Shown in pieces: positions 1 through 59,352 of a stretch of 64,000 bases of DNA. The DNA lies in the NCBI RefSeq assembly GCF_013378075.1, contig NZ_CP051131.1, positions 2,368,501 through 2,432,500 on the forward strand, written 5' to 3'. The stretch's first letter is position 1. Each line of letters starts with the position of its first letter. Origin of the DNA: Parasphingopyxis algicola. Its GTDB lineage: Bacteria > Pseudomonadota > Alphaproteobacteria > Sphingomonadales > Sphingomonadaceae. The position numbers and the translations under genes are program-made. The notes beneath the pieces are model-generated. The model saw only the letters and a list, made by a program, of their open reading frames with translations, was not told where the DNA came from and searched no databases.

Positions 1-162
1 CATGCGGCGCATTACCACGCGGCCGGGCTGGTCGACGATCCGGTCCGTACGCTCGAAATCGATGGACTCGGCCGCAACGATGCGGACGGTGGCGCGGGCC
101 TGCGCGATCGCACCGGATTCGGGCAGCACGGCGAGCAGCAGGAGGGCGGACGGGACAGCCAT
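1..162 (-). CDS. Secreted protein, N-terminal fragment, function unknown
   Basis: The reading frame starts at an ATG at 162 and runs off the left edge. The first ~22 residues (Met-Ala-Val-Pro, then a Leu-rich stretch ending Ile-Ala-Gln-Ala) look like a Sec signal peptide, and the frame then stays open to base 1. Only 54 residues are visible, so no family can be named. It lies beyond tRNA-Leu from the pilus locus, so co-transcription with the usher gene is possible but not shown. Confidence 0.45.
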   Translation of the reverse strand, partial: MAVPSALLLLAVLPESGAIAQARATVRIVAAESIDFERTDRIVDQPGRVVMRRM

Positions 163-368
163 GCGGCCGGGCTAGGCCGTTCGCCGCCAGCCCGGAAGGT
201 AAAGAAATGGTTAAACCGGCCGGAAAAGAGCGTTAACGCAGGTATTTGCGCGATAATTCGCATAGGCGCGGGGATTCGCATGCGTTCGCCCATTGCGCCC
301 GCCCGCGCCCTTTGCTAGAGGCTCGCGCCTGCCAGAGGCCGGTCCATGACCGGCGTTCAGGAAAATGT

Positions 369-455
369 GCGGTCGTGGCGGAACTGGTAGACGCGCAACG
401 TTGAGGTCGTTGTGGGCGAAAGCCCGTGGAAGTTCGAGTCTTCTCGACCGCACCA
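369..455 (+). tRNA. tRNA-Leu (anticodon GAG)
   Basis: An 87-nt class II tRNA. The 7-bp acceptor stem pairs 369-375 with 445-451, followed by discriminator A and an encoded CCA at 453-455. The anticodon loop TTGAGGT, closed by CAACG/CGTTG, gives anticodon GAG, which reads CUC and CUU Leu codons. A long variable arm (GTGGGCGAAAGCCCGT region) is typical of tRNA-Leu, and the T loop is TTCGAGT. It is followed closely by a hairpin terminator. Confidence 0.95.
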
Positions 456-487
456 TTTTCCAGATTCTCAGACATTCAGAGAACCGG

Positions 488-510
488 AAAGTCGCGCCGC
501 ACGACTTTTT
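488..510 (+). terminator. Intrinsic terminator after tRNA-Leu
   Basis: AAAGTCG at 488-494 pairs perfectly with CGACTTT at 502-508 around a 7-nt loop, and the T run extends to 510. It lies 33 bp after the CCA end of tRNA-Leu and also separates it from the convergent usher gene. Confidence 0.6.
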
Positions 511-554
511 GTCTGTCGGGAAATCGCCACAGGTTTCTCGTCAGACTCAACCCG

Positions 555-3233
555 TCACGGCGTTTCGGAGGACGATACCGCGTTCCCGCCAATGGCGACG
601 GTCCCGAGCCGGACGCTGTCATTCTCGTCGGTAACGAAAGCCCGGCGGCCGAGCGCCGCGATCGCGCCGAGCGCCTGCGCCGAAAGTTCGGCCATCCGCA
701 CCGAATATTGGCCGTAGGGGACGCTCTGGAAGACGAAAAAGCCGTCGAAATCGGTCCGCACGACCTGCACGACGCGGCCTTCGATATCGACCAGCTCGAG
801 ATCGACGCCTTCGAGCGCACCGCCGCCTGCGCGGACCAGCATGCCGTCAATCTCGCCGGCGCTGACCAGCGGCAGCTCCACGGCCGCCGCGGTTCCGGGC
901 CGCGGCGTGACCACGACGCCGGGGCCACGCGGCTGGACGAAGGGGTCGGCGAGCGAGGAGGTGTCGATGCCCACGAGGATCGGCCGGTACGGCGTCAGTC
1001 CGGTCACCACGGCGAGCCCGTTCTCGTCGGTCGGATCGTTGGCCGGCGCCCGGCCGGTCGTGATCTGTACCCCTTCTTCAAAGGGTTCGTTCGGCTGCCG
1101 CACGCCGTCATTGTTCAGATCGCGATAGACGCGCGCGACCGTCTGGCCACTGCTCGCGAGCTTGTCGGCGGTCATATGGACGCCGCCGCGCGGATCGGGG
1201 CCGATGCTGAAGGCGAGGTTGAGCCCGGCCGCTACCGATCCGTCGGTCGCCGTCTCGGCCGAGGCGGTCAGCGCGAACCGGTTGAAGCGCCGGACATAGC
1301 CGATGCTCGCCCGGGCGCGATCGAGCGTCGCCTGATAGCCGAGTTCGGAGCGCCAGGCGCTGTTTTCGCCGCCCCCCCAATCGGCGGTGAGCGACGCGCT
1401 TTCGAACCGGCTGCCGGGAGAAAGTCGCCAGCGCGCCTCGCCGCGCAGGCGGACGCGCCCGATCCGGCCATTGGCCAGGATGGCGGCATTGGTCTGGTCG
1501 GGCGGGTCGAGCCCGTCCGCCGTGCCCGCGCCCTGCCGCCGGTATCCGATCTCCCCGGTCAGCGCAAAACGGCGCATATTCGCAGAAATCCGCGCCGCGC
1601 CGTCGAGCTGGTCGGCGCCGTCCTCCCGCGTCTGATAGGTGGCTTGCACCCGGACCGGCATCACGACGCGGCCGAGATTGACGCTATGATCGACGGCCAG
1701 GCTGTGCCGGCCCGTCGTATCGATACCATAGCGTTCGGTGCGGAAATCGCGGGCGACCACCGATTCCGCGTTTATATAGGCGCGTCCGAACCGCCCGAGC
1801 AGCTGCGCGCGGGCCGCATAGCCGCCATTATCGGCCCAGGCGGCCGTCACTTCGACCAGCGCCGGCCCGATCGCCCGGCGGACCGAGCCCTCGACAACCG
1901 TCATGCGGTCATCCGCGATGACCATGTTGTTGAGCTGGAATGCCAGCGAAGTCCGGGGGTTGAGCCCCCTTTCGAGCCCCAAGCCCGCGCGCCAGTTGGC
2001 GTCGCGCGCCAGATCGCGATTATCGAGACTGACGAGATCACGATCATCCTGGCTGGCGCCCGCCCAATACCAGGTCTGGCGCGGCGGAATGCTGGCCGCA
2101 CCGACGTTGATGATCTCGGTTTCGCGGCGAATCTGGCCCTGGGGGCCGTACAGGACGACTTCAAACCGGTTGATGCCGTAGCGCAGCTCGACATCGACGA
2201 ACTCGTAGCGACCGTCGCCGCGATCGCGCGAAAAGGCCAGCAACTGGCCGTTGCGGTAGAGTTCGGCTTCCCAGCCTTCCGGCAGTTCGCCACGGAAGGT
2301 GCGCCGGTCGAAGCTGTCGGGCTGGTCGAGCGGGCGGTTGGTGACAATCCCGCCGCGCCCGGGCGTCGGCTGGGCGGCGATCGGCGAGGACTGGCTGGAG
2401 ACATCGCCGATCGCGAAATGGGTGGCGCCCAGCGGGCCCAGCAAATTCGCCTCGTTGGAGCTGCGAAACGCGCGCATGCGCAGCGATTGCGGCACCCCAC
2501 GATCATCCGAGGCAAGCCGCGCATCGACCGAGGCGGTCAGGATCTCGCCCACCGCGTAAATCTCGTAGCGCCGCTCGAACCCGCTGCTGCGGCGCTGGCG
2601 ATCGCGCAATCCGCCGAGCGAAACGACGATGTCGACGGAGGGCGTGCGCCACATGCGATAGGGAGTGTCGGCCTGGGGCAGCGCGGACAGGTCGAAATCG
2701 ACGCGCGGGCGCAGCGAGGCCGCCCGGGCGCGCCGCTCGAGCCCGCGTTCGACGGGCAAGGGCTGGTCGGAACGCAGCAGGAGCACCGCATTGCGCAGAT
2801 CGGCCTCCATCGTAACGCCGAGCCACGCGGCGAGCGTCTGGGTCGTCACGCACCAGCCTTCCGGCGTGTCGAAAATGGTGCCGTTCGGCAGATCTTCGGC
2901 GGATTCGCCGAACCGGACGCGATTCCGGTTGCGATCGATAACTATCTCGTTTTCTTCGGCAAAGGCCCATCCTTCGGCCCGGTTGGCCGCCTCGTCGATG
3001 GCGATCGGCAAATCGAGCGCCGCAATCGTATCGGCAAGATCGATGCAAACGCCTTGCGGAGTCTGATAGCCGCGCACGGCATCGCCGAGCCGATATTCGC
3101 CGAGCCGGACTTCGAGCAGCAGGGAATCGTCGGGATGGGCATCCCACGCGACCTGGGCCGAGGCGCTGGCGGCCGTGCACAGGGCGACGAGACTCGTCTG
3201 GATATGTTTCGCGCGATGTCCCCAGCGAAGCAT
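555..3233 (-). CDS. Usher-like outer membrane pilus assembly protein
   Basis: The 892-residue protein has a short N-terminal signal region ending near Ala-Ser-Ala-Gln. Small globular N-terminal modules are followed by a long beta-rich middle with alternating aromatic and charged strands, as expected of a beta-barrel. The C-terminal part holds carboxypeptidase-regulatory-like beta sandwiches with a Leu-Asn-Asn-Asp-Gly-Val-Arg-Gln-Pro-Asn-Glu type motif, as seen in ushers of non-classical chaperone-usher systems. The gene follows a periplasmic chaperone and DUF4402 subunit genes on the same strand, so it is inferred to secrete and assemble those subunits at the outer membrane. It differs enough from PapC/FimD that the usher call leans partly on context. 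Confidence 0.7.
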   Translation of the reverse strand: MLRWGHRAKHIQTSLVALCTAASASAQVAWDAHPDDSLLLEVRLGEYRLGDAVRGYQTPQGVCIDLADTIAALDLPIAIDEAANRAEGWAFAEENEIVIDRNRNRVRFGESAEDLPNGTIFDTPEGWCVTTQTLAAWLGVTMEADLRNAVLLLRSDQPLPVERGLERRARAASLRPRVDFDLSALPQADTPYRMWRTPSVDIVVSLGGLRDRQRRSSGFERRYEIYAVGEILTASVDARLASDDRGVPQSLRMRAFRSSNEANLLGPLGATHFAIGDVSSQSSPIAAQPTPGRGGIVTNRPLDQPDSFDRRTFRGELPEGWEAELYRNGQLLAFSRDRGDGRYEFVDVELRYGINRFEVVLYGPQGQIRRETEIINVGAASIPPRQTWYWAGASQDDRDLVSLDNRDLARDANWRAGLGLERGLNPRTSLAFQLNNMVIADDRMTVVEGSVRRAIGPALVEVTAAWADNGGYAARAQLLGRFGRAYINAESVVARDFRTERYGIDTTGRHSLAVDHSVNLGRVVMPVRVQATYQTREDGADQLDGAARISANMRRFALTGEIGYRRQGAGTADGLDPPDQTNAAILANGRIGRVRLRGEARWRLSPGSRFESASLTADWGGGENSAWRSELGYQATLDRARASIGYVRRFNRFALTASAETATDGSVAAGLNLAFSIGPDPRGGVHMTADKLASSGQTVARVYRDLNNDGVRQPNEPFEEGVQITTGRAPANDPTDENGLAVVTGLTPYRPILVGIDTSSLADPFVQPRGPGVVVTPRPGTAAAVELPLVSAGEIDGMLVRAGGGALEGVDLELVDIEGRVVQVVRTDFDGFFVFQSVPYGQYSVRMAELSAQALGAIAALGRRAFVTDENDSVRLGTVAIGGNAVSSSETP

Positions 3234-3260
3234 GACGCCCCGCTCCCCCCGGATGCCGCG

Positions 3261-4097
3261 CTAGCGCAGCACCGCTTCGGTTTCGGCGATCAGGCTCCCG
3301 CCTGCACCGTCGGGTTCGCGGTACTGGATGCGAACCGGACCGGCGAGACTGCCCTGAAACTCCTCGGACACGGGCAATATTACCGAACGGCTGCCGATTT
3401 CGGCATAGACCGCGACGCCGCGCGCCCGTGCCAGCGGCACATCGACGCCGGGCCGCGTCACGGTGACCTCGCCATAAACCGACCGATCACCGAGTCGGCT
3501 AAGGTCGAAACCGACGGCTTGGACGCCGTCTTCCTCTACAATCCGCGGATTGGCGATGGCCGCGGTCGCCGTCAGATTGCCGTGACGGACGATAATCGGG
3601 ATGGTCACGCCATAAACGGGGATCAGCCGGATCTGGAAACCCTCGCCAGCGCCCTCGGTCTCGGCGGCGACCGGACGTGGGCGTGGAATCGCACGGAACA
3701 GCATGTGGACGCGATATTCGCCGTCGGAAATACCCTCGGGCGCGCGGACACCGATGCGGATCGCCTGAGGCTGATTCGGCGGCAGGACGACGCGGCGCGG
3801 CGCATAGCGGATCATCCCGAGCGCCGATTCCTCGCTGTCATTCGGGATTTCCACCTCTTCCAGCCCGCCGTCAGCGGTCATCCGTCGCAGCTCGAGCGAA
3901 ATCCGGTAGGCAGCTTCTTCGCTGCCGATATTGTTGAGAATGACTTCGGTCCCGCGCGCGCCGTTGAGCACGACCCGAGTGGGCGCAATAAGCAGATCGT
4001 TGGCCTGGATAGGCGCGGGCGCGGCGATCAATGCGACAACAAGGGCTAGCGCCGCAGCTCCCGCTCGGACGCTGTTCGACAAATTTTCAAGGATCAT
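3261..4097 (-). CDS. Periplasmic pilus chaperone
   Basis: A 278-residue Sec-exported chaperone. The start at 4097 (Met-Ile-Leu-Glu) is preferred to an upstream ATG at 4130 because GGAGACC lies just upstream and a signal peptide follows directly, ending near Gln-Ala-Asn. The mature part has the PapD-type pattern: an early 'LLIAPTRVVL' strand, 'LPPNQPQAIRIGVR' and 'DGEYRVHMLF', which match the subunit-binding and hydrophobic-core strands of archaic pilus chaperones. It lies 27 bp before the usher gene and would hold DUF4402 subunits in the periplasm until usher docking. Confidence 0.82.
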   Translation of the reverse strand: MILENLSNSVRAGAAALALVVALIAAPAPIQANDLLIAPTRVVLNGARGTEVILNNIGSEEAAYRISLELRRMTADGGLEEVEIPNDSEESALGMIRYAPRRVVLPPNQPQAIRIGVRAPEGISDGEYRVHMLFRAIPRPRPVAAETEGAGEGFQIRLIPVYGVTIPIIVRHGNLTATAAIANPRIVEEDGVQAVGFDLSRLGDRSVYGEVTVTRPGVDVPLARARGVAVYAEIGSRSVILPVSEEFQGSLAGPVRIQYREPDGAGGSLIAETEAVLR

Positions 4098-4216
4098 GAA
4101 AGGTCTCCGTCTCGACTGTCCGGGAACCATTCGGCATCTTGAAATCCCCCCCGGAAATTCGAGGAGAATGTCGCAAAAACTGGTTACTTTTCCGTCAAGA
4201 ACCGCCGGTCGGGCCG

Positions 4217-47997: not shown

Positions 47998-48911
47998 CAG
48001 CCGAACAGGATCGCCGACAGGCGCCGGCGCTGCGCGGCCACCCATTCGTCCTCGAGCCCGACCACTTCGAACAGCTGGAGCAGCTTTTGCCGCGCCGCGC
48101 CCTCGTTCCAGTCCCTGTCGGCCTCGATGATATGGAAAAGATGATCGGCGGCGGCGTCGCGCTCGTCATTTGCCATCAGCGCGGCGGCGAGTTCCATGCG
48201 CGCTTCGTGATCGTTCGGATCGGCATCCACTTTCGTCTGGAGCGGCGCGGTGTCTTCGGTCTCGGTTGCGTCGCCGGCCAGATCGACTGCTGATTGCGCG
48301 CGGGCGATCGCCGGGTCCTTGGCCACGTCTTCGGGAATCTGGGCGAGCATTTCCCTGGCTTCGTCGATCTTGCCCATCGCGACCAGCGCGCGAACGAAAC
48401 CGGAGATAACCTTGGGCTCGGCGGGCGCCATTTCCATGATCTGGCCGAAAATCGAGAGCGCGCGCTCGCCATCGCCTTCGGACAGCACCTGTTCGCCCAT
48501 CTCGATCAGCGGTTCGATCTCGGCCTGTTGCTGCTTCTCGTCGCTATCGATCGGGAGCTGCGTGAGGATCTGGTCGAGCATCTGTTTCAGCGAGCCTTCG
48601 GTGCGCGCCTGGCCGAGATCGGCGACGGGCTTGCCCTGGAACATCGCATAGACGGTGGGGATCGACTGGATCTGGAACTGCGACGCGATGAACTTGTCTT
48701 CGTCGACATTCACCTTTTTGAGGACGACGCCCTTGTCCGCATAATCGGCCGCCACCTTTTCGAGGATCGGCGTCAGCTGTTTGCACGGCCCGCACCATTC
48801 GGCCCAGAAATCGAGAATGACGAGCTTGGTCATCGACGGTTCGACGACATCGGTCCGGAATTTCTCGACTTCGGCCTTCTGATCTTCGGTCAGTCCCAAT
48901 TGCGTGGCCAC
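47997..48911 (-). CDS. YbbN-like thioredoxin/TPR co-chaperone
   Basis: A 304-residue protein with an N-terminal thioredoxin domain (active site WAEWCGPCKQ near residue 39, cis-Pro in 'QIQSIPTVYAMFQGK') and a C-terminal TPR-like helical domain with pairs of 'ARMELAAALMANDERDAAADHL' type. GTG at 48911 is chosen, with AGGAG about 10 bp upstream. Unlike E. coli YbbN the CxxC is complete, so it may be redox-active. It is inferred to assist chaperones. Confidence 0.9.
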   Translation of the reverse strand: MATQLGLTEDQKAEVEKFRTDVVEPSMTKLVILDFWAEWCGPCKQLTPILEKVAADYADKGVVLKKVNVDEDKFIASQFQIQSIPTVYAMFQGKPVADLGQARTEGSLKQMLDQILTQLPIDSDEKQQQAEIEPLIEMGEQVLSEGDGERALSIFGQIMEMAPAEPKVISGFVRALVAMGKIDEAREMLAQIPEDVAKDPAIARAQSAVDLAGDATETEDTAPLQTKVDADPNDHEARMELAAALMANDERDAAADHLFHIIEADRDWNEGAARQKLLQLFEVVGLEDEWVAAQRRRLSAILFG

Positions 48912-49114
48912 GATCTTTCGACTCCTGCGTGAATGTTTGCGCTTATATGGGGGAGACGGCCCCGGAACCCAAGAGGGAGGATTATTCGGTGGCCCGGTGC
49001 CCGAAGGTCCGCCCGGGACGCCCGATTTCCTCTTGCCCCGCTTGGCGACCCATGCTAGCTGCGCCGCCTCTTCACCGGATGGCAAGGCTTTGCCATTAGC
49101 GGGAAGAGCGCCGA

Positions 49115-49189
49115 GCGGGCGTAGCTCAGGGGTAGAGCACAACCTTGCCAAGGTTGGGGTCGGGCGTTCGAATCGCCTCGCCCGCTCCA
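49115..49189 (+). tRNA. tRNA-Gly (anticodon GCC)
   Basis: A 75-nt tRNA: acceptor GCGGGCG (49115-49121) pairs with CGCCCGC (49179-49185), discriminator T, encoded CCA 49187-49189. The anticodon loop TTGCCAA gives GCC. Its 3' 17 bp are duplicated at 58358, so it is the insertion site of the adjacent element; the tRNA remains intact. Confidence 0.96.
49173..49189 (+). repeat. attL core (tRNA-Gly 3' end)
   Basis: TCGCCTCGCCCGCTCCA, the T-arm end, acceptor strand and CCA of tRNA-Gly, is repeated exactly at 58358-58374. Confidence 0.9.
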
Positions 49190-49329
49190 AACGTTTTCCG
49201 GGACTTCCCGCCAAAACCCTCGGGTACGTGCGGGTTCACGGATTTTCGTACCGCTCCCCATCGTGGGTTTTCGGCTTTTGTGGCACATTCTGCGCAACAG
49301 AACGTGCAACAAGGCGGACCCGGCAGACG

Positions 49330-50733
49330 GTGCGAACAGACGACAGATATCTCCAGAAACGCGGGCAGCGCTGGCACTATGTCCGGCGGGTGCCGGGCCG
49401 CTTTGCCGATCTCGATGATCGCGGGACGATCCGGCTGGCACTCAAGACCAGCTCGCTTGAGGTCGCGCGCATGCGCCGCGACGCGATGGCCGAGGCCGAT
49501 GATCAGTTCTGGGCCAACCTCGTCGCTGCCGCCGACGAGGATGCCATTAGCGCACTACGCCGAGAGATCGCGGCCCGCCGCTATCGCGGGGCATGCTCGC
49601 GGGCTCTAGCGCATGGCTTTGTTTATGCCCCGGCCAGCGAACTGGCCGAGATGACCGACCTTGCCGAACTGCTCGTGCGCTTGAAGCTCGTCGATGCGAA
49701 GGATAGCGGCAAACCATCGGAACCCGAACGCGCCGAAGCCGAAGCGCTGCTCGGCGGCGTGGAACGGCCCGCCATCACGATCAGCCAGGCCTTCGACGTC
49801 TATTGCGAGGACATCGCTTATGGCGATTTCGTCAACAAGTCCAAAGGCCAGAGAAGGCTCTGGATGAAGACCAAGAAGCGCGGCATCCAGAACTTTATCG
49901 ATATCTGCGGCGATATGGCCTTGCGCGATATCACCCGCGCCGATGCGCTCAAATTCTACGACTGGTGGAAGCATCGGCTGATGCCCCAACCGGGCAAGCG
50001 CGGCCTCAACCCCAACACCGCCAATCGCGATATCGGCAATGTGCGTAAGCTCTACACCGACTACTTCCGCCACATCGGCGAGGACGAGCGCAAGAACCCG
50101 TTCCGCAATCTCAGTTTCGCGGTCACCAAGAAGAGCGATGTCCCGTGCTTCGAGAATGACTGGGTGCGCGAGCGTATCCTCAAGCCCGGCATCTTCGACG
50201 GGATCAACCGCGAAGCTGCATTGATCGTTTATGCGCTGATCGAGACCGGCTGCCGTCCGAGCGAGATCGCCAACCTCACGCAAGAGAATATCCGGCTCGA
50301 CTGCGATGTCCCGCACATCCGGATCAGGCCGACCGAGGGCCGCGAGATCAAGACGCGCTCGTCGATCCGCGACTTGCCCCTGGTCGGCGTGGCGCTGGAA
50401 GCGATGCGGCATGCCCCGGAGGGCTTTCCGCATTATCGCGACAAGCCGGACCTGCTCTCCGCCACCCTGCTCAAGGCGTTTCGGGTGCGCGAGCTTTTCC
50501 CGACCGATGAGCATGTCATCTACTCTTTTCGCCATTCGTTCGAGAAGCGGATGCTCGAAGGCGGCCTCGACTATGGTCTGCGCTGTACGTTGATGGGGCA
50601 TCACAATCCCCGGCCCGAATATGGCGACGGGGGATCGCTCGCATATCGCAGGGACGAGCTGTTGAAGATCGCGCATCCTTATCCCGAGGCGCTGTTCGGG
50701 GATCAGCGGAAGCGTCTGCAACGGGCGGCGTGA
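49330..50733 (+). CDS. Tyrosine site-specific integrase
   Basis: A 467-residue recombinase. The N-terminal 'DRYLQKRGQRWHYVRRVPGRF' is an arm-type DNA-binding domain, a core-binding SAM-like domain spans residues ~150-250, and the catalytic domain has Arg in 'ETGCRPSEIANLT', His/Arg in 'YSFRHSFEKRML', His in 'LMGHHNPRPEYG', and the presumed Tyr just after. GTG at 49330 fits the family start. Its gene reads away from the tRNA, 141 bp inside attL, and it is inferred to have inserted the island. Confidence 0.9.
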   Translation: MRTDDRYLQKRGQRWHYVRRVPGRFADLDDRGTIRLALKTSSLEVARMRRDAMAEADDQFWANLVAAADEDAISALRREIAARRYRGACSRALAHGFVYAPASELAEMTDLAELLVRLKLVDAKDSGKPSEPERAEAEALLGGVERPAITISQAFDVYCEDIAYGDFVNKSKGQRRLWMKTKKRGIQNFIDICGDMALRDITRADALKFYDWWKHRLMPQPGKRGLNPNTANRDIGNVRKLYTDYFRHIGEDERKNPFRNLSFAVTKKSDVPCFENDWVRERILKPGIFDGINREAALIVYALIETGCRPSEIANLTQENIRLDCDVPHIRIRPTEGREIKTRSSIRDLPLVGVALEAMRHAPEGFPHYRDKPDLLSATLLKAFRVRELFPTDEHVIYSFRHSFEKRMLEGGLDYGLRCTLMGHHNPRPEYGDGGSLAYRRDELLKIAHPYPEALFGDQRKRLQRAA

Positions 50734-50985
50734 GATAGGCGCTGAGACGCGCGGCTTTCGAATGGCGCGCGTCGAGCTCGCGTTCCAGACGCTCGAAAAT
50801 CGGCCAGTAGACCTCGCTATAGCGATCGATGATTCGCGCAGTGGTGCGGAGCGCAGTACGTATATCTGCGGAGCATATCGGCATCGCGTGACGATGGCCG
50901 AAAAGTATTCTACTAATCATCAGGAAAGCTGTGCAATCCCGGTCAGCGCGATGCGTTGCGTGGCCATGCGTTTCAACTTCTTGAG

Positions 50986-52482
50986 CTATGATCTCAAAAC
51001 AGCAATTTCGGCAGCTGCTGTGTTCCACCCGTGTAGTACTTCAGAGAAGGGGTGTATCAATACACCGCTATTAGATTGCCACGCTTGTGCATCCCAGCCT
51101 GCTTCGAGCAGGTCTGAAGCCGCGAAAATGAACTCTAACGCATGCGTGAGGAAAGCTATCAGGTGCCCATACTCGTGATAGTCAAAACTGCCGGCACTGC
51201 CGTGGACGAAGTGGTTTCTGCACTTGACTGCTTCATCAACCACCAACGGGAGATCGGTGAGCGGACTTCCAAGACCATTTGAGACAATTGTGGCGCGATG
51301 GAAGATTTTCTGACGCAACGTTCGGCGTCCCAATCGACCAAGCGCACCTAAAATTCCGTCCCGGTCCTCAGATTGAGGTAGTTGGAGAAAAAGAGAGCGG
51401 GCTGATTGCCTGGCATTGGCCAATTCCTCCTCCAACGGCGGATTGGGCGGCAATGCATCGTCCGGAAGAATGTCGAACATGTTTGCAGCCCCGACTAGGC
51501 GATCGATGCTTATCATATGCTGTTGGCCAAAGTTGCCTGAGAATCGCATCCGCGCCTCCGCGCGCGAAGAATCCATAGCAATCCATGATTTGAGCACGCG
51601 TTCGAAATGGTCCCGAGACCGAACAGCGTTGATAAGTATCTCGCTTGAATGAGGCTTGCGAGTCTCACCTTCCAGTTGCCGTCGTGGCTGCATGCACCAA
51701 TAAACGTCAAGCGGTGCCCGATACTCATCTCCGATTAAGTCGATTTTCGTCCATTCCATGTTCGGCGGGCGGCCAGCGATCATTTCTAGGAATCGTAGCA
51801 GCGTCCGAATTCGAGCGATCACGTTATCGAAGGTTTGCGGTTCTGCGAATGTCAGTTCAATCAAAATTCGATTCTCAATCGCGGCGCGGCGCGGACTAAA
51901 AAAGGGGTTGGTGAAAGGTCGATGCCTGACCGTTACGACTCCGATCGCAGTCTCGACAGATGCTATCTCTTTTTGTCCGGCGAAGTAGACTATCTCAGGG
52001 TTTGGACCGATCGGAATCTTGCGATTGATCCGCGTTTCGTTGCCTTTCACAACCGTCTCGATCAGCGGCTCGGGATCAAGTACAATTCCAAAAGCGTCGA
52101 AATCGTAGAAGATGTCTTCAGCATCATCGATACGAAACATGACGCGCTCGATCTCCGCCGCTTGTGGGTCGAAGTGTCGATGCCCGCTGGCCACGTAGTG
52201 CGGCTGAATTTCGCCGAACGTGTACCTCTCTTCGTATCGCCCTGCAGAACCCATGGTAGAGCGGATGACGCAACCGATTAGAGTGACCTTCGTGAGATCA
52301 TGCAGCGTACCCCGCAAGTCGCGATGTTGATCGTGATCCAGCGCGAAGAACTCTCTATCCTGTAGCCAGAGTGTCGTCGCGGAGCCATCAATTGAAAGTT
52401 CGCCGACGAGCTGTCGATCATCATTGAACTCGAACCATCCTCCGAGCTTCGCACCATCAACAATTTCAGATTTGGCGCTCAT
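50986..52482 (-). CDS. ApeA-like HEPN anti-phage protein
   Basis: A 498-residue protein. The N-terminal ~310 residues match the ApeA N-terminal layout: 'GGWFEFNDDRQLVGELSIDG', 'LRGTLHDLTKVTLIGCVIRS', 'YVASGHRHFDPQAAEIERVMF'. The C-terminal HEPN domain has Arg422-x4-His in 'VKCRNHFVHGS', the ribonuclease motif. ApeA is a single-gene defence system reported from systematic screens; HEPN proteins cleave RNA on infection. It has a good ribosome site (GGGAG) and reads alone in the island. I have not aligned it to a reference. Confidence 0.72.
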   Translation of the reverse strand: MSAKSEIVDGAKLGGWFEFNDDRQLVGELSIDGSATTLWLQDREFFALDHDQHRDLRGTLHDLTKVTLIGCVIRSTMGSAGRYEERYTFGEIQPHYVASGHRHFDPQAAEIERVMFRIDDAEDIFYDFDAFGIVLDPEPLIETVVKGNETRINRKIPIGPNPEIVYFAGQKEIASVETAIGVVTVRHRPFTNPFFSPRRAAIENRILIELTFAEPQTFDNVIARIRTLLRFLEMIAGRPPNMEWTKIDLIGDEYRAPLDVYWCMQPRRQLEGETRKPHSSEILINAVRSRDHFERVLKSWIAMDSSRAEARMRFSGNFGQQHMISIDRLVGAANMFDILPDDALPPNPPLEEELANARQSARSLFLQLPQSEDRDGILGALGRLGRRTLRQKIFHRATIVSNGLGSPLTDLPLVVDEAVKCRNHFVHGSAGSFDYHEYGHLIAFLTHALEFIFAASDLLEAGWDAQAWQSNSGVLIHPFSEVLHGWNTAAAEIAVLRS

Positions 52483-52742
52483 GCCGATCTCCCTTTCCCG
52501 CCCTAAGCTAGCTCGCGAGGATATGATGATAGTTTCAAATTGGAGTCCAATGTCGACGGTTAGCTAACTGCACTGGATTTCTAGTTCAGCGCATGTCGGA
52601 CATCTCGCCGCACTTTCTAGCGCGGTAAAACTTTTCAGGAAATGCGAGAAGAGTAGTGAGATTGCGGTCTAGGGTGGGCCGAGGGCAAGATTAAAGGACC
52701 GGTGCAAGGCACCGGATTTATCGGGTCTGCACATCGACTTAG

Positions 52743-52780
52743 CCCTGCACCTACACGGTGTTTTTACCGTGCAGGGTTTT
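52743..52780 (+). terminator. Hairpin with T run inside the defence island
   Basis: ACCGTGCAGGG (52766-52776) can pair with CCCTGCAC plus CACGGT on the 5' side, leaving a short bulge, and is followed by TTTT (52777-52780). It has no upstream protein gene on this strand, which suggests a short untranslated transcript. Confidence 0.45.
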
Positions 52781-52877
52781 CGCGGAATGCGGCGGAGATA
52801 CTGGACAAAAAGTTGCACCATGCGGGATTGGCGGTTTTCCTGGGATCGGGCGATCGGCCCCGATGGAAAGCAAGGAT

Positions 52878-52964
52878 GCGCGGTCTGCGCCCGGCGCTCA
52901 AGGCTCATGACCGCCGTGCGGCGCGCCTTCAGGCGCGACCTTGACCGCCGGGCGCAGACCGCGC
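52878..52964. repeat. Perfect 19-bp inverted repeat, 49-nt spacer
   Basis: GCGCGGTCTGCGCCCGGCG at 52878-52896 is the exact reverse complement of 52946-52964. The spacer has its own hairpin (GGCGCG arms around 52919-52937). The base composition is much more GC-rich than nearby island genes. Confidence 0.7.
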
Positions 52965-53072
52965 GAGAGGCTGGCAAGCGGGGCCGGGAAAGCTGTGGGC
53001 GGGAAGGACGATAGCGCGAGGGCGGATCGGTTATCCGTTGGCCTCGGACTCCTCTCTCGCTAAGCTCTTCCC

Positions 53073-53984
53073 GTGAAAAGCGATATCGATCATCTGCCGC
53101 AATCGAAGCAGCGCGAGCTGGAGCGCGCGGTCGAGATCATCCTCGCCGAGTTCGCCGATGCGATGAAGCAGGCCTCGTCCCAAAAGAAGAAGGATGGCCG
53201 CATCCTCAAGATCATCCTGTTCGGATCATACGCCAGAGGCGGCTGGGTCGATGAACCCCATACCGCCAAGGGCTATCAGAGCGACTTCGATCTCTTGATC
53301 ATCGTCAATCACGAGCGCGTCGTCGACTTCTCGACCTACTGGTACCGGGCCGAAGACCGGCTGATGCACGAGCCGACCATCAAGCGGCCGGTCAATTTCA
53401 TCGTCCACACATTGGGCGAGGTGAACAACGCGCTTGCCCAGGGGCAGTATTTCTTCTCCGACATCTTCCACGAAGGCATCGCGCTCTATGAGCTGAAAGG
53501 TGAGAAACCGCTGCTCACGCCGCAGCCGCCAAGTCCGGAAGCTGCACTGGAGACGGCCAAAAAGCACTATGAACATTGGATGGAGAGTGCGCGGCAGTTT
53601 CTAGGATATGCGAAGGATGGTTGCAAAAAGGGATGGAACAACAGCGCTGCTTTTCAGATGCATCAGGCCGTCGAACGATATTACATCGCCCTCCTGTTGG
53701 TTCTGACCAACTATTCGCCTGCGACTCACAACGTAAAATTCCTGCGCTCGCTGGCGGAAGAGCAGGACCCGCGCCTGATCGATGTCTGGCCGCGCGAGAC
53801 GAAGGCCGACCGCCGTGCCTTTGAACTTTTGAAACGCGCCTATGTCGAAGCGCGCTATTCGGAGCACTACACCATCACCGCCGACGAACTCGCTTGGCTT
53901 GGCGAGCGCGCCGAAGCACTCAAGGATATGGTCGAAACTATCTGCGTCGAGCGGATCAGGAAGCTAACGAAGAAGTTAGCTTAA
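53073..53984 (+). CDS. Fused nucleotidyltransferase-HEPN protein
   Basis: A 303-residue protein. The N-terminal minimal nucleotidyltransferase has 'ILFGSYARGGWVD' (Gly51-Ser) and 'SDFDLLIIV' (Asp71, Asp73). The C-terminal HEPN domain starts near residue 160 and has Arg261-x3-His265 in 'EARYSEHY'. Fused MNT-HEPN proteins are related to the HEPN-MNT toxin-antitoxin pair in which MNT di- or tri-AMPylates HEPN. The GTG start lacks a clear ribosome site. Composition is GC-rich, like the host. A toxin-antitoxin or defence role is inferred. Confidence 0.78.
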   Translation: MKSDIDHLPQSKQRELERAVEIILAEFADAMKQASSQKKKDGRILKIILFGSYARGGWVDEPHTAKGYQSDFDLLIIVNHERVVDFSTYWYRAEDRLMHEPTIKRPVNFIVHTLGEVNNALAQGQYFFSDIFHEGIALYELKGEKPLLTPQPPSPEAALETAKKHYEHWMESARQFLGYAKDGCKKGWNNSAAFQMHQAVERYYIALLLVLTNYSPATHNVKFLRSLAEEQDPRLIDVWPRETKADRRAFELLKRAYVEARYSEHYTITADELAWLGERAEALKDMVETICVERIRKLTKKLA

Positions 53985-53995
53985 ACGGAATTTCC

Positions 53996-54469
53996 CTAAT
54001 CGGGCATTAGTTTTGTAACGCCGGGAATTTCGACGAGCCAATCGCTCAGCCGTTGCAGCGAATTGGACTGCCCTTGCGTAATCTTCCCCCAAACTCCGGC
54101 ATGGCAGTCGTTTCCCGTTACTGGAACCATACCTATTTTCCAACGATCGTCGGCTTCATTGACTGAGTCTATCGATCGAAAATTCTCTATCGAAATGGTA
54201 AGGGCACCGGGCCACTGCGGAGTGGTTACATATTCGCCAGGATCGATACCTTTCGCGACTATGCATGGTGTTGAGTCGACTGACAGATGACCTCGCCTAG
54301 GATCGTGCTTGTAAACAGCCGATGATAGGCGATGGCCGCCACTGTTATGGTCAGGCACTACGTAGTCGTCGCTAATGCGGCGGATGATGTGCGCGCCATC
54401 AACCAGTTCGGGATGGTCGTGCGGAATAACCTCGCCGTCTTCATCTCGCGGCAGCTCAAAGTCACACAC
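53996..54469 (-). CDS. Uncharacterised small protein of the TIGR04255 operon
   Basis: A 157-residue soluble protein read from a GTG at 54469, 3 bp after the previous gene. Visible features are 'AHIIRRISDDYVVPDHNSGGHRLSSAVYKHDP', with a Ser-Ser pair and several His, and 'WPGALTISIENFRSIDSV'. No catalytic motif known to me is present. It is the third gene of a packed minus-strand operon and is visibly A+T-richer than the host. Confidence 0.65.
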   Translation of the reverse strand: MCDFELPRDEDGEVIPHDHPELVDGAHIIRRISDDYVVPDHNSGGHRLSSAVYKHDPRRGHLSVDSTPCIVAKGIDPGEYVTTPQWPGALTISIENFRSIDSVNEADDRWKIGMVPVTGNDCHAGVWGKITQGQSNSLQRLSDWLVEIPGVTKLMPD

Positions 54470-54472
54470 GAA

Positions 54473-54940
54473 TCAGGCGAGCTCCTGCAAAACCTCGCTG
54501 AGATCGTCAAATGAGCTCGTGAGTCGTTCATCCTCCAATGGCTCGCGCTCATCGGGATATTCGACGCTAAGCTCAGCCTCAAAAGGTGCAAAAATTGCGA
54601 GTTCGATATCAAATCCGCCAATATGCCATTCGAGCTGTAATCCACCTCCAGACATGGGAACTATCGATGGCGGAGGCGTTTCTGCGCTCATGACCGAGTC
54701 GAGAATTGATCGTGCAAAAGCGATTATGGAATGTTGTGGGGGCGCAGAGTTATATCCATCCCAGCCGGTCGGGTAGGCACTTAGCTGGGCGAGTCGCACT
54801 TCGACTGCGTACCGCCATGATTCCTCAATCGCAGCTACTTCGATCAGTTCTGGCCTTGCCTTTCGCGGCGCGATAGTTTCTCGCAAGCGCGCGAAAGTTT
54901 CGGTCAACGGCGATTGCTCGTGGACTAATGCAAGGTTCAT
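54473..54940 (-). CDS. Uncharacterised small protein with 'GWDGYNS' motif, TIGR04255 operon
   Basis: The 155-residue product starts at 54940, where ATG overlaps the TIGR04255 stop (ATGA) with GGGAGAGG upstream; an ATG at 54955 is less likely. Key features are 'LSAYPTGWDGYNSAPPQHSIIAFARSIL', 'PPSIVPMSGGGLQLEWHIGGFDIELAIF', and an acidic C-terminus. This pattern recurs in small proteins of unknown function that I associate with TIGR04255 genes. Function unknown. Confidence 0.65.
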   Translation of the reverse strand: MNLALVHEQSPLTETFARLRETIAPRKARPELIEVAAIEESWRYAVEVRLAQLSAYPTGWDGYNSAPPQHSIIAFARSILDSVMSAETPPPSIVPMSGGGLQLEWHIGGFDIELAIFAPFEAELSVEYPDEREPLEDERLTSSFDDLSEVLQELA

Positions 54941-55779
54941 TTCTGCCTCTCCCACATCATATGCGCTTCTTTAGATGTAATCTCGGTGAACGTCCGGACA
55001 ATTATTTCACGCTCGGCGTCGATCATCTCAAGAGATTTGTTGAAAGTTTGCTCTGCCGGATGACCCCTGACATGCAAGTTCAGTCTGGCTGATCGCCTGC
55101 TTTCCTCTTCAGTCCCGTATTCTAGGCTCACATGCAGACGCGCGACAGGTATTCCAGACTGGTTTTGCAGCACACGCCGGAATTTGAAGACGCCATCCTC
55201 AGTTGTGCCCATCATGCCAACTAACCAAGGAAAGACGTAGGACAAACCGCAGGCTTCGCCAGCACTATCGACCAACGGAATAATATTTACGTAAATCGCC
55301 TCGCACTGAGTCGGGCGAGGTTTCCCCAGACCCTCATCCCGCGACCAATCGCGAAGCATTTGAAACAAGCTTTCTATCTTCTCACGCACGTGAACGTAAC
55401 GTGGATACTCTTCTGCACCGGGACGTTTACGCCAATTGAAGAAAAGCCGATCCTTTTGGAGCTGAACAAGCTCGCTGTCGTCCTCGCTTATGAAGAAAAA
55501 GCGAGGTTGGATCGGAGCTTGAATCATTTGAAGCTCCGGGACACCCAAAGGGGCGCTTCTCGGGCCGAACGTTTCGAACGCTGGATCGAGAGGGGGACGC
55601 TCTTCGAGCCGGACGTACTTGTCTCGAATTCGCTCCCAAAAAGAAGCGGCATGCAGACTCTGGAAACCTTCCAGGCCTTCGAATTGGACCCCAATTGAGG
55701 TTTCGACGACTGGAGGGCTTTCATATTCTGGCAGAGCATCGGTGGGTGCCGACGCTTCGTCAGGAAATTTCAGTTTCAA
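54937..55779 (-). CDS. TIGR04255 family protein
   Basis: A 280-residue protein matching TIGR04255: near the N-terminus 'YESPPVVETSIGVQFE', 'LVQLQKDRLFFNWRKRPGAEEYPRY', 'CEAIYVNIIPLV', 'RLNLHVRGHPAEQTF', and at the end 'ERQK' after 'IVRTFTEITSKEAHMMW'. The TTG start at 55779 has GGAAG 7 bp upstream. The family is sporadically distributed and uncharacterised. It leads the three-gene operon 55779-53996. Confidence 0.78.
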   Translation of the reverse strand: MKLKFPDEASAPTDALPEYESPPVVETSIGVQFEGLEGFQSLHAASFWERIRDKYVRLEERPPLDPAFETFGPRSAPLGVPELQMIQAPIQPRFFFISEDDSELVQLQKDRLFFNWRKRPGAEEYPRYVHVREKIESLFQMLRDWSRDEGLGKPRPTQCEAIYVNIIPLVDSAGEACGLSYVFPWLVGMMGTTEDGVFKFRRVLQNQSGIPVARLHVSLEYGTEEESRRSARLNLHVRGHPAEQTFNKSLEMIDAEREIIVRTFTEITSKEAHMMWERQK

Positions 55780-56678
55780 AAGTTATCTTCCGCATGGTGG
55801 GTGCTTTTTAAGAGTTGATCTTGACGAGGTTGTCAAATCAGTCGCGCCGAATCGACCTATAGACGAGTCGAGCCGATGGAGCGACGAGCCGTTCAGATAA
55901 CATACGGCCCGGCGCCTCTCGTGCGGAACCGATCGCACAAGCGACTATATGGGCTAACGCTCTCGAAAGGCTTTTGCCATCGAAGGAGCGCCAAGTCAGC
56001 GTCTCTGCTTGACACCTTCTGCATCATAAAGGAGGCGAGAGCAGTTTCCCGCATTCGACATGGACTATTCGCTGACGAGCCGCATACGCGCCCGCTCATC
56101 GAAACACTTGAGGCCTGTCGGTATGCAGGCAGGCACGCGCTCGCCCGGAGTGCAAGCAACCGACCCGAGTAACGTGTGCTGCCGCCAAGAAAATCTATTC
56201 GGTGTGCCGACCGCCATAGATGCGCTCCTCCCATCCCTACTGAGTTCGATGATACAGCTCACGGTCGATACGGTCTCTGCCTCGGCAACCGCGCTTTCCG
56301 ATCGCACATCGGGCCCTTGGTCACGCTCCCGTTCGTCGATGAATGTCTGTGCGGAACGATAGCGGCTCGAAGTGCGCGGACTGGTATTTCGGGCCGCCCA
56401 GGCCCGAATACCGCGATGCACCAGCCTGGTGAGAAAAAGCTTCTTGATGCGGTCGGTCAGCTTCGTGCCGGGGAGGCTATTTGACGGCCGTCGGAAACCG
56501 AAAGGGGAGGCGTTGAAGAGTCGGAGAACTTTCTAGGCCAAATCTATTCTTAACCGGCACATTTGAAGTGATCCGACTTAGTCAAGAGCTTGGCTCGAAC
56601 AAACTTGTGAATTTGGCGGCTGATTGTTGCTCCGATACGACGTAGCACCTAGGCTCAGCCTCGGCATGGAGTAATTCA
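55780..56678. other. 899-bp gap without a convincing gene
   Basis: This lies between the divergent TIGR04255 operon and the P-loop ATPase gene. Short open frames up to about 118 codons exist on both strands, but none has a ribosome site, a recognisable fold, or composition that stands out. It may hold both promoters, an RNA gene or a decayed gene. GGAG at 56669-56672 belongs to the ATPase start. Confidence 0.5.
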
Positions 56679-58124
56679 ATGGGTCTTTTAGCTGAAATTG
56701 GAACTTTTGGAGACGTTGCGGCGGAAGATGATGACGCCGTCCTTTCGTACTTCTTAAAGACAGATGACGTCGACGAAATCGAAAACGGTTCATCTTTTGC
56801 TGTCATAGGGCGCAAAGGGTCGGGTAAGACAGCGATAACAAAGTATTTTTCTCAGCCGCAACCCAATTACGTAACTGCCTCGCCAACTTTGCGTGACTAT
56901 CCTTGGGCGGAGCATGCTAAGCGAAGAAATCTCGGAGCTTCCGATATAGAGGCATACGTTAGCTCGTGGCGATACCTGATCGCGGTGAAGGCGAATTCGA
57001 TAATTCTCGAAAAGCGTGGCATGAAGCAAATGACTGACGCGCAACGTACAGCCCGGGAATTCTTGAATGCGAACTACGGCGGCATAGTTCCGTCGCTGGC
57101 AGAAATAATGAGACCTGCACGCCTCAAAGTGACGAGGCGGACGTTCTCCCCCAGTGTCATGGGCACGAGTGTTGGAAGCATAGACATTGAGGACGAGAAA
57201 GGCGGTATTGCGCAAGAAATTGACGTAGTCACGCAGTCGTTGATGAAAAATGCAGCTGAGTTGGCGGATCAGGCCGGCATGGAGAAAATTTGCATCCATT
57301 TCGATGAGCTAGATCAGGGAATGAGCGAGCTTACCGATGACCGACGTTACATGTTGATTGGTCTGATCCTAGCGATACGCTCGATAAGAGGCAGCAAGGA
57401 AGGCGAAAAAGTTTTCCCCGTTTTCTATATTCGGACCGACTTATGGGATGAAATTCGGTTTTCTGACAAGAACAAGATCTCCCAATCATCGGCGGTGTTT
57501 CTGGAGTGGGATCCCGACAGTTTATTAGAAATGGTGAACGAGAGGATCAGAGCAAAACTGGGTGCGGAAAAGTCTTGGAATTCTATCGACGACGGAGCCG
57601 TCATGCGAGGCTCGCAGCCAAAATGGAATCACATAGTTACGCGGACGTTCTTGCGGCCTCGAGACGTGATTCAATTCCTGAACTATGCGCTCAAGATTGC
57701 ATTAAAGAGGGATCATGATGCAGATGTCTTTACTAACGAAGACATCCAAAATGCGCGCAATGCCTACTCAAAGTATTTGAGCCAAGAACTTGACGACGAG
57801 ATTGGTCCACATTGGCCCTGTTGGCGAGAAGCAGTGCAAGCTTGTTCGGCGGTGGCTACCGAAACTCTTTCGAGAGAACAGTTCGAGACAGCGTACGAAG
57901 GACGAAAAACGAAAGCAAACGATTTAGACACGGCTCAGGCGCTGGCGAAACTCTATGACTTTTCAATCATAGGTTACTTGAAATCGGTCGGCTTGGGCGG
58001 ATCGAAGTGGATATTCCATTATTCCCACCCTGATGCTGGATGGGACAGTGCTGCAAGCCGACTTAAGGTCCATCAAGGATTGAAAGAATTCGCTCAGCTC
58101 AGAGAAGCGCGCGCCGGCAGTTAA
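56679..58124 (+). CDS. Sll1717-like P-loop ATPase
   Basis: A 481-residue STAND/AAA-like ATPase. Walker A is 'VIGRKGSGKTAITKYF' (Gly44-Thr51), Walker B is 'ICIHFDELDQG' (204-214), then 'PVFYIRTDLWDEIRFSDKNK' and 'FLRPRDVIQFLNYAL', a sensor-like Arg region. No transmembrane segment or nuclease motif is seen; the C-terminal ~100 residues are unassigned. It is preceded by GGAG 6-7 bp before ATG. In other genomes such ATPases occur in defence loci. It is the last gene before attR. Confidence 0.75.
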   Translation: MGLLAEIGTFGDVAAEDDDAVLSYFLKTDDVDEIENGSSFAVIGRKGSGKTAITKYFSQPQPNYVTASPTLRDYPWAEHAKRRNLGASDIEAYVSSWRYLIAVKANSIILEKRGMKQMTDAQRTAREFLNANYGGIVPSLAEIMRPARLKVTRRTFSPSVMGTSVGSIDIEDEKGGIAQEIDVVTQSLMKNAAELADQAGMEKICIHFDELDQGMSELTDDRRYMLIGLILAIRSIRGSKEGEKVFPVFYIRTDLWDEIRFSDKNKISQSSAVFLEWDPDSLLEMVNERIRAKLGAEKSWNSIDDGAVMRGSQPKWNHIVTRTFLRPRDVIQFLNYALKIALKRDHDADVFTNEDIQNARNAYSKYLSQELDDEIGPHWPCWREAVQACSAVATETLSREQFETAYEGRKTKANDLDTAQALAKLYDFSIIGYLKSVGLGGSKWIFHYSHPDAGWDSAASRLKVHQGLKEFAQLREARAGS

Positions 58125-58357
58125 GTGCAGCCGCCCGTTTTTTGCGAACTGTCATCAAAAAAGTTATCGCTCCACTCTCGGCCGAATGGCGTCGCACGTC
58201 CCACCTTTGACAAGGTCCGCTAACTACGTTCTGCTGAAATCAGGAGATTGTTCATCGGACTTTGCTTGTGCAACAACCTCTTCACAGATTGTGCAGCAAA
58301 TGGTGGATGCGGATGAGCTAGGTTGCTGACGATAAATGGTTTTTAGAATTTCGTCAG

Positions 58358-58374
58358 TCGCCTCGCCCGCTCCA
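58358..58374 (+). repeat. attR core (displaced tRNA-Gly 3' end)
   Basis: An exact 17-bp copy of the tRNA-Gly 3' end, in the same orientation, 234 bp after the ATPase stop. The 316-bp gap 58125-58440 holds no other feature I can identify. Confidence 0.9.
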
Positions 58375-58440
58375 TTATTTCCTACATCTTCGTGGCCCAA
58401 AGGGGTGTTGCGCCTCGTCTCCGACTGAGGGATGGGTATG

Positions 58441-59352
58441 TCACAGCACCTCGGCCGGCTTTTCCGCGAGCTTGTCCGCCGTCTTCGTCTCGAAATCATT
58501 CGCGTCGTGCCGTTCGGGCAGCTGCGTCTCGGGCTCGCCCCAGACGCGGTTGACCATCCTACCGCGCTGCACGGCGGGGCGCTCGGCAATCTGGTCGGCC
58601 CAGCGGTTGAGATGTTTGTAATCCTGAACCTGCAGGAATTCCGCAGCCTCGTAGAGCACACCCTTGGCCATCCCGCCATACCAGGGCCAGATCGCCATAT
58701 CGGCGATCGTATAGTCGCTGCCCGCCATATATTCGTGATCGCCAAGGTGTCGGTCGAGCACATCCATCTGGCGCTTCACTTCCATCGCGAAACGGTCGAT
58801 CGCATATTCGATCTTCATCGGCGCATAGGCGTAGAAATGACCGAAGCCCCCGCCGAGATAGGGGGCGCTCCCCATCTGCCAGAACAGCCAGTTGAAGGCT
58901 TCGGTGCGCGCCTTGAGATCGCCGGGCAGGAAGGCGCCGAATTTTTCCGCGAGATAGACGAGGATCGAGGCCGACTCGAACACCCGTTGCGGTTCGGGCG
59001 CCGAGCGGTCGACCATTACCGGGATCTTGGAATTGGGATTGATGTCTACATAGCCGCTGCCGAACTGGTCGCCCTCGCCGATATTGATCAGCCAGGCGTC
59101 ATATTCGGCGCCGTCATGGCCGAGCGCCAGCAGTTCTTCGAGCATCACGGTCGCCTTCACGCCGTTCGGCGTGGCGAGCGAATAGAGCTGGATCGGATGC
59201 TCGCCGACCGGCAGGTCCTTGTCATGGGTCGGACCGGCCACTGGTCGGTTGATATTGGCGAAACGACCGCCGCTTTCCTTGTCCCAGGTCCAGATGGCGG
59301 GCGGCTCGTAGCCGGGCGGCTGATTTTCGGGGGTTTCGGTTTCGTCGGCCAT
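58441..59352 (-). CDS. yghU: Glutathione-dependent disulfide-bond oxidoreductase YghU
   Basis: The 303-residue GST-fold protein has a long N-terminal extension with 'FANINRPVAGPTHDKDLPVGEHPIQLYSLATPNGVKATVMLEEL' (Thr/Asn glutathione site of the Nu class) and 'NPNSKIPVMVD'. Members bind two glutathiones and reduce disulfides and organic peroxides. It ends close to attR, so it is the first host gene after the island. Confidence 0.92.
   Translation of the reverse strand: MADETETPENQPPGYEPPAIWTWDKESGGRFANINRPVAGPTHDKDLPVGEHPIQLYSLATPNGVKATVMLEELLALGHDGAEYDAWLINIGEGDQFGSGYVDINPNSKIPVMVDRSAPEPQRVFESASILVYLAEKFGAFLPGDLKARTEAFNWLFWQMGSAPYLGGGFGHFYAYAPMKIEYAIDRFAMEVKRQMDVLDRHLGDHEYMAGSDYTIADMAIWPWYGGMAKGVLYEAAEFLQVQDYKHLNRWADQIAERPAVQRGRMVNRVWGEPETQLPERHDANDFETKTADKLAEKPAEVL

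Follow-up and report, generated by a model that had tools for sequence, protein, structure and literature searches.

A conserved mobile gene trio built on a TIGR04255 protein is a candidate self-guarding or anti-phage system

Introduction

Among the described systems closest to the locus treated here, CmdTAC is a three-gene anti-phage system made up of an ADP-ribosyltransferase (ART) toxin, an antitoxin, and a chaperone, in which the antitoxin is degraded as the toxin is freed (PMC11618068, in excerpt; correction, PMC11445053). A second, PDC-M32, is a candidate of PADLOC-DB named in the excerpt of PMC12429752; our literature search on it found no experiment. The locus itself is a trio of genes, here called A, B, and C, in a stretch of 64,000 nucleotides of the Parasphingopyxis algicola genome (contig NZ_CP051131.1, positions 2,368,501 to 2,432,500), which is referred to below as the window. 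Gene A encodes a TIGR04255 family protein. The trio is a conserved mobile unit present in several bacterial phyla, and this, together with the kinship of B and C to a listed phage-defence candidate, makes it a candidate new self-guarding or anti-phage system.

Like CmdTAC, the trio has three genes including an ART-fold effector, although for the trio this fold is only proposed. The two differ in that CmdT was aligned with exotoxin A in the excerpt of PMC11618068, whereas the best structural matches of C are Tpt1 proteins. A SecB-like chaperone for A was absent from the structural matches listed, which does not exclude one. The nuclease–protease pairs of PMC12799240 offer a further parallel, being two-gene pairs reused with unrelated partner modules, with one member also found as a fusion; as excerpted, they belong to other protein families and have a demonstrated function, whereas that of B–C is a proposal. 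Among the matches listed in a literature search for three-gene ART-fold defence systems (including the excerpts of PMC10853773 and PMC12799240), none was recognised as the trio, and the literature searched does not name TIGR04255.

The Trio and Its Conservation

The three genes are packed on one strand as follows:

54937..55779, minus strand: gene A, TIGR04255 family protein, 280 aa, TTG start at 55779
54473..54940, minus strand: gene B, acidic 'GWDG' protein, 155 aa, likely ATG start at 54940
53996..54469, minus strand: gene C, 157 aa, GTG start at 54469, 3 bp past the stop of B

Protein A scores 60 bits against TIGR04255, for which the curated cut-off is 30, with residues 19–276 aligned on positions 2–251 of 252. 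The bases at the A–B junction read ATGA, so that the ATG of B overlaps the stop of A; the open reading frame (ORF) listing also offers a GTG at 54955 as a longer alternative start for B. The start positions of B and C agree with those of relatives, and the N-terminus of A is a few residues longer than in its relatives. The three ORFs, the TTG start, the ATGA overlap, and the 3-bp gap are all as described in a previous sequence-only reading of the window, which had also called the trio richer in A+T than its host (we measure 52.6% G+C, against 63.5% in the window) and had found no member with a known function, a statement that stands.

B, with an isoelectric point of 4.3 (median 4.8 over 36 rows), has no Pfam or NCBIfam match at E ≤ 1 and a weak PHROGs match to phrog_30544 (0.01), whose function is unknown. 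C has no Pfam or PADLOC match at E ≤ 1, no PHROGs match at E ≤ 0.1, and a single chance-level NCBIfam row (0.25). Profiles of A, B, and C compared with Protein Data Bank chains returned nothing meaningful (best E 0.77, 0.18, and 0.44, respectively), and a promoter and terminator scan of positions 53900–56700 found nothing above shuffled sequences.

A search of named genomes with A alone yielded 42 loci, 32 of which carry A, B, and C in this order on one strand; the others have A–B (3/42) or A alone (7/42, two of the seven being cut by contig ends). Kept this often, the shared order and strand are beyond chance. Starting from B, we found matches in 4/296 genomes of the order, all four copies being full trios, and in 7/289 genomes of the class: four full trios, a locus with TIGR04255 upstream of B (L035), a locus in which B follows an unassigned gene and precedes a C-like gene (L034), and one weak match in a 1029-aa frame. 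By eye, the genes upstream of B in L034 and L052 had been taken for TIGR04255 relatives, a reading to which NCBIfam gives no support. C was found in six of the 289 class genomes (four trios, L041 at a contig start, and L042, a weak match in a 403-aa frame) and in two of 299 phylum genomes, the window and G364, both with trios.

Under the lenient rule that the nearest in-frame start is chosen, 20 of 31 trios allow a 4-base A–B overlap. Mantel correlations over 34 loci were 0.859 for A–B, 0.804 for A–C, and 0.860 for B–C (permutation p 0.001 each), in a test that does not control for host phylogeny and in which some loci are near-identical. In at least two cases one genome is present under two ids (L059 and L005, L061 and L004), and C is identical in L071/L024 and in L073/L027. 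Order, co-inheritance, and the searches from the A, B, and C sides strongly support the earlier proposal that the trio works as one unit.

As labelled, the hosts of the 42 loci include alpha- and gammaproteobacteria, Acidobacteria, Planctomycetes, Nitrospira, Gemmatimonadales, Polyangiaceae, Obscuribacterales, and others. On a Mycobacterium paragordonae plasmid the trio adjoins mobF, and on a phage-like contig its neighbourhood includes what look by eye like portal and terminase genes; among viral contigs, one of 27 candidate stretches was a relative. In one further trio (L086:2167-3429), B and C are separated by what looks by eye like a transposase gene. An Acetobacter persici plasmid carries an apparent tandem B repeat (L006:3944-5249) that overlaps an SspB-family gene (PF04386, 2.5e-11), a neighbour that may connect B with ClpXP adaptors.

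Kinship of B and C with PDC-M32

B (P0002) matches positions 255–330 of 375 of PADLOC PDC-M32A at 4e-11, and A has no PADLOC match. In profile–profile comparisons, B scored 97.5% (E 6e-12) against the C-terminal part of four PDC-M32A proteins, and C scored 95.3% (E 2e-8) against five PDC-M32B proteins. The other seven pairings all fell below 1%, with hhalign giving 0.2% for A against the N-terminal part of the four PDC-M32A proteins; A is therefore unrelated to that part. It follows from these pairings that PDC-M32 is a B–C pair in which B is fused to an N-terminal domain other than A. In both systems a B domain, C-terminal in PDC-M32A, precedes a protein of the C or PDC-M32B kind; they differ in that the B domain of the trio is free-standing after TIGR04255. 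In the window we thus find the B domain and, directly downstream, a PDC-M32B partner that is a remote homologue only, and no PDC-M32A with its own N-terminal domain. The label 'undescribed', given to the trio by the earlier reading, has to be narrowed: B and C have distant relatives in PDC-M32A and PDC-M32B. PDC-M32 itself is a list entry in the excerpt of PMC12429752.

Other loci show B–C in different company. Taken alone, C (P0003) gives no PADLOC match, and the C of another trio (L074) reaches PDC-M32B at 0.0013. The genes downstream of the B-bearing genes in L044 and L047 score as PDC-M32B (3.6e-56 and 4.8e-53); the B-bearing gene itself is PDC-M32A in L044, and in L047 B is fused to another protein. 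In L044 (positions 1-4106), the genes on either side of the PDC-M32A–PDC-M32B pair look by eye like hsdM and hsdS, as in a type I restriction operon. L051 (881-3339) has an ATPase (AbiLi 3e-77, AriA 3e-30), then a B-domain gene, then a weak C-like gene (0.024), and is perhaps a B–C pair with a different trigger module. A is replaceable by an unrelated partner, and B–C looks like a portable pair. In PHROGs, a PDC-M32B protein matches phrog_31579 (5e-41), of unknown function.

Predicted Fold of C

The structural model of C has a predicted local distance difference score (pLDDT) of 92.5 and a predicted template modelling score (pTM) of 0.87. The top twelve of its 18 listed structural matches are of six kinds, namely Tpt1/KptA (six), CC0527 (two), AvrPphF ORF2, Xre-RES, a mosquitocidal toxin, and SdeA mART, all of which belong to the ART superfamily. 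Of Tpt1, the match covers only the C-terminal part (from residue 72-88 on). RES/Xre, Tpt1/KptA, and DUF952 proteins of this superfamily thus resemble C as its top structural matches and differ from it in having no detectable sequence similarity.

R30, S63, R98, and H123 are kept in 36/36 close members. In the aligned columns of 16 divergent members the histidine is found in all 16, S63 in 13, and R30 in 12, and the R, S, and H positions are also common to two aligned PDC-M32B proteins. The model suggests that C possibly has an ADP-ribosyltransferase-like fold, and the conservation points to R30, S63, and H123 as a candidate active site. The named ART clades are H-H-h, H-Y-[EDQ], and R-S-E, and KptA and RES domains use phosphate as acceptor (excerpt of PMC9503650). 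The R-S-H set of C matches none of these clades exactly, with a histidine for the glutamate. C may also not be ART-like, the match then reflecting a common alpha/beta arrangement and C serving as a structural or binding partner; we regard this as unlikely, although still a serious contender, and both the agreement of the top twelve matches, of six kinds, on one superfamily and the invariant charged and polar residues argue against it.

The Integrated Island and Other Genomic Contexts

The window copy of the trio sits in a mobile, defence-like island with the following features:

49115..49189, plus strand: tRNA-Gly(gcc), integration target, whose last 17 bp (49173-49189) are one end repeat
58358..58374, plus strand: right border of the element, repeating 17 bp from the 3' end of the tRNA
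48904..50733, plus strand: tyrosine recombinase ORF with a DUF6538 domain (PF20172 2.8e-7; PF00589 2.1e-5)
50986..52482, minus strand: ApeA-type HEPN defence protein (PF18862 1.6e-25, PF18739 6e-9)
53073..53984, plus strand: nucleotidyltransferase–HEPN fusion (PF05168 1.8e-14, PF01909 9e-7)
56679..58124, plus strand: Sll1717-family P-loop ATPase (NF047389, 295.8 bits)

The true start of the recombinase is probably inside its ORF, because the ORF overlaps the tRNA. Nucleotidyltransferase and HEPN proteins are usually encoded by separate genes, MntA and HepT. The ATPase also matches the anti-phage model NF053860 (5e-15, 55 bits, far under the cut-off of 370). An Rfam scan of positions 49000-58500 found the tRNA only. 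In G122, a genome of the same genus, the tRNA adjoins the right flank, and left and right flanks join directly, sharing 17 bp where the tRNA ends; the site is therefore empty there. The island that the sequence-only reading had described around a tRNA, HEPN genes, and an ATPase is confirmed by the tRNA-Gly, the integrase, ApeA, the nucleotidyltransferase–HEPN fusion, the Sll1717 ATPase, the 17-bp repeat, and this empty site.

Around 31 trio loci, we counted 188 near and 116 far genes of at least 130 aa. The genes scanned were 116 near ones (≤650 aa, the nearest 120 minus four cut by locus ends) and 84 far ones (≤650 aa, the 100 most distant minus 16 cut by locus ends). At E ≤ 1e-10, near genes matched 81 PADLOC models (each by one member, 25 shown) and far genes eight, in a tally that counts models, many being variants of one family, and not distinct proteins. 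Down to E 1.3e-24, the models were Aga_Nuclease, Specificity_I, MTase_II, PDC-S01, and DpdF for the near genes and DUF499, mad3, and C3a156 for the far genes. Among the Pfam families shown for near genes are two of transposases and, matched by two members, one of resolvases.

TIGR04255 Proteins Beyond the Trio

TIGR04255 was found in 18/289 class genomes (22 places) and in 21/249 phylum genomes (22 places, four common to the class set). Downstream of TIGR04255, the B or C profile finds a match at E < 0.01 at 11 of the 22 class places and at eight of the 22 phylum places, the class set sharing two of these eight. The trio operon type thus accounts for only some of the family. Of 42 neighbour proteins compared, 14 matched B at E < 0.01, always at gene 2, and seven matched C, always at gene 3; of 462 shuffled or reversed controls (42 proteins × 11), one matched B (0.0085) and none matched C. 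Six of the 14 B matches arise by construction, since the proteins of L034, L044, L047, L051, L052, and L053 stem from searches with B or PDC-M32A, and the scan of the phylum set covered 17 of 18 new loci, L151 being left out because no A gene was found there.

Other TIGR04255 partners are helix-turn-helix (HTH) genes with 'TCD' proteins, a PemK toxin, proteins not placed, or none visible. In L010, L026, L137, L140, and L144, TIGR04255 is followed by a small or HTH protein and then by a 'TCD' protein of ~190-260 aa, with motif forms SNTCDM and SQTCDI/V; the two tested, from L137 and L144, have no Pfam match. L139 has an HTH gene and a third gene of similar size without the motif. In L138 (1483-2858), a 95-aa gene and then a PemK/MazF toxin gene (PF02452, 1e-18) come after TIGR04255. 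Five Terriglobia/Bryobacterales loci (L076, L077, L078, L082, and L095) hold the A subfamily with no B or C profile match, and three of them have a citrate-synthase-like gene (by eye) ~2.6 kb downstream. L151 has a partial TIGR04255 match and two downstream ORFs (208 and 163 aa) of B-like and C-like size.

Discussion

Gene order, coupling, conservation, and co-inheritance are direct observations on the trio, as is the mobility of the window copy. Our tentative reading, held at somewhat less than an even chance, is that the trio is a co-inherited mobile cassette encoding a three-part conflict module. In such a module, we infer, C would be a small effector that uses NAD+ through its ART-like fold, either modifying RNA or protein or consuming NAD+. 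B would be a small acidic adaptor or antitoxin that binds C and holds or positions it, and A a sensor or ligand-binding subunit that would sense a ligand or a part of an invader and decide on the release of B–C, leading to growth arrest or abortive infection. Alternatively, A may help to keep the element in the cell.

Several observations weigh against a three-part conflict module. The Pfam families of genes near the 31 trio loci (25 of 125 shown) are mostly metabolic or general, and the window copy, although in a defence-like island, is one island and no statistic. Searches of 50,697 phage records with A and C found nothing, and the Acetobacter persici plasmid has no A or C match in 8.2 kb. 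The C profile shows no sequence similarity to RES (13 rows), KptA (3), or DUF952 (9), a comparison that is uninformative, as these three fail to find each other too. More distant B domains are fused to PDC-M32A, lie beside an ATPase, or occur without A and C. The refuting condition set by the sequence-only reading, that homologues of the small proteins are rarely near TIGR04255 genes, is not borne out for close homologues, which nearly always adjoin such genes. A role in defence or element maintenance, as first suggested, is plausible in view of the copies on a mobile island, a plasmid, and a phage-like contig, and is weakened by the flanking families shown.

The same copies, on the integrated island, the mobF-bearing plasmid, and the phage-like contig, would also suit a toxin–antitoxin-like addiction cassette that maintains its island or plasmid, in which C or B–C would be toxic, A and/or B would neutralise it, and no phage trigger would be involved. 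The genes are compact and coupled, their occurrence is sporadic (B in 4/296 order genomes), and in L138 a PemK toxin is encoded two genes away from another TIGR04255 gene. Nevertheless, we consider this rather unlikely: with many of the flanking families shown being metabolic, many copies may not be mobile, and three coupled genes together with the replacement of A suggest sensing over simple addiction. Quite improbable is an operon that processes small molecules or nucleotides and plays no part in conflict, in which A, whose structural comparison gave a weak TBP/guanido-kinase-like resemblance, would be an enzyme of that type, C a Tpt1-type RNA or nucleotide modifier, and B a subunit, given the very sporadic occurrence, the low G+C, the island, plasmid, and phage-like copies, and the kinship of B–C to a defence candidate found in L044 between hsdM and hsdS (by eye).

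With the trio, TIGR04255, a family of unknown function, gains a consistent partner set and a testable role, and the defence candidate PDC-M32 becomes part of something wider. Small three-gene systems of immunity or addiction may have been overlooked as a class. More speculatively, and with the balance leaning to doubt, the effectors of the portable B–C pair would form a new clade with an ART fold and a histidine, and the pair would be plugged into several unrelated trigger modules: TIGR04255 proteins in several phyla, AbiL/PARIS-like ATPases, and PDC-M32A next to restriction genes of type I. The trio of the window would then be the first described member of a modular NAD-dependent immune family, with TIGR04255 as a common sensor.
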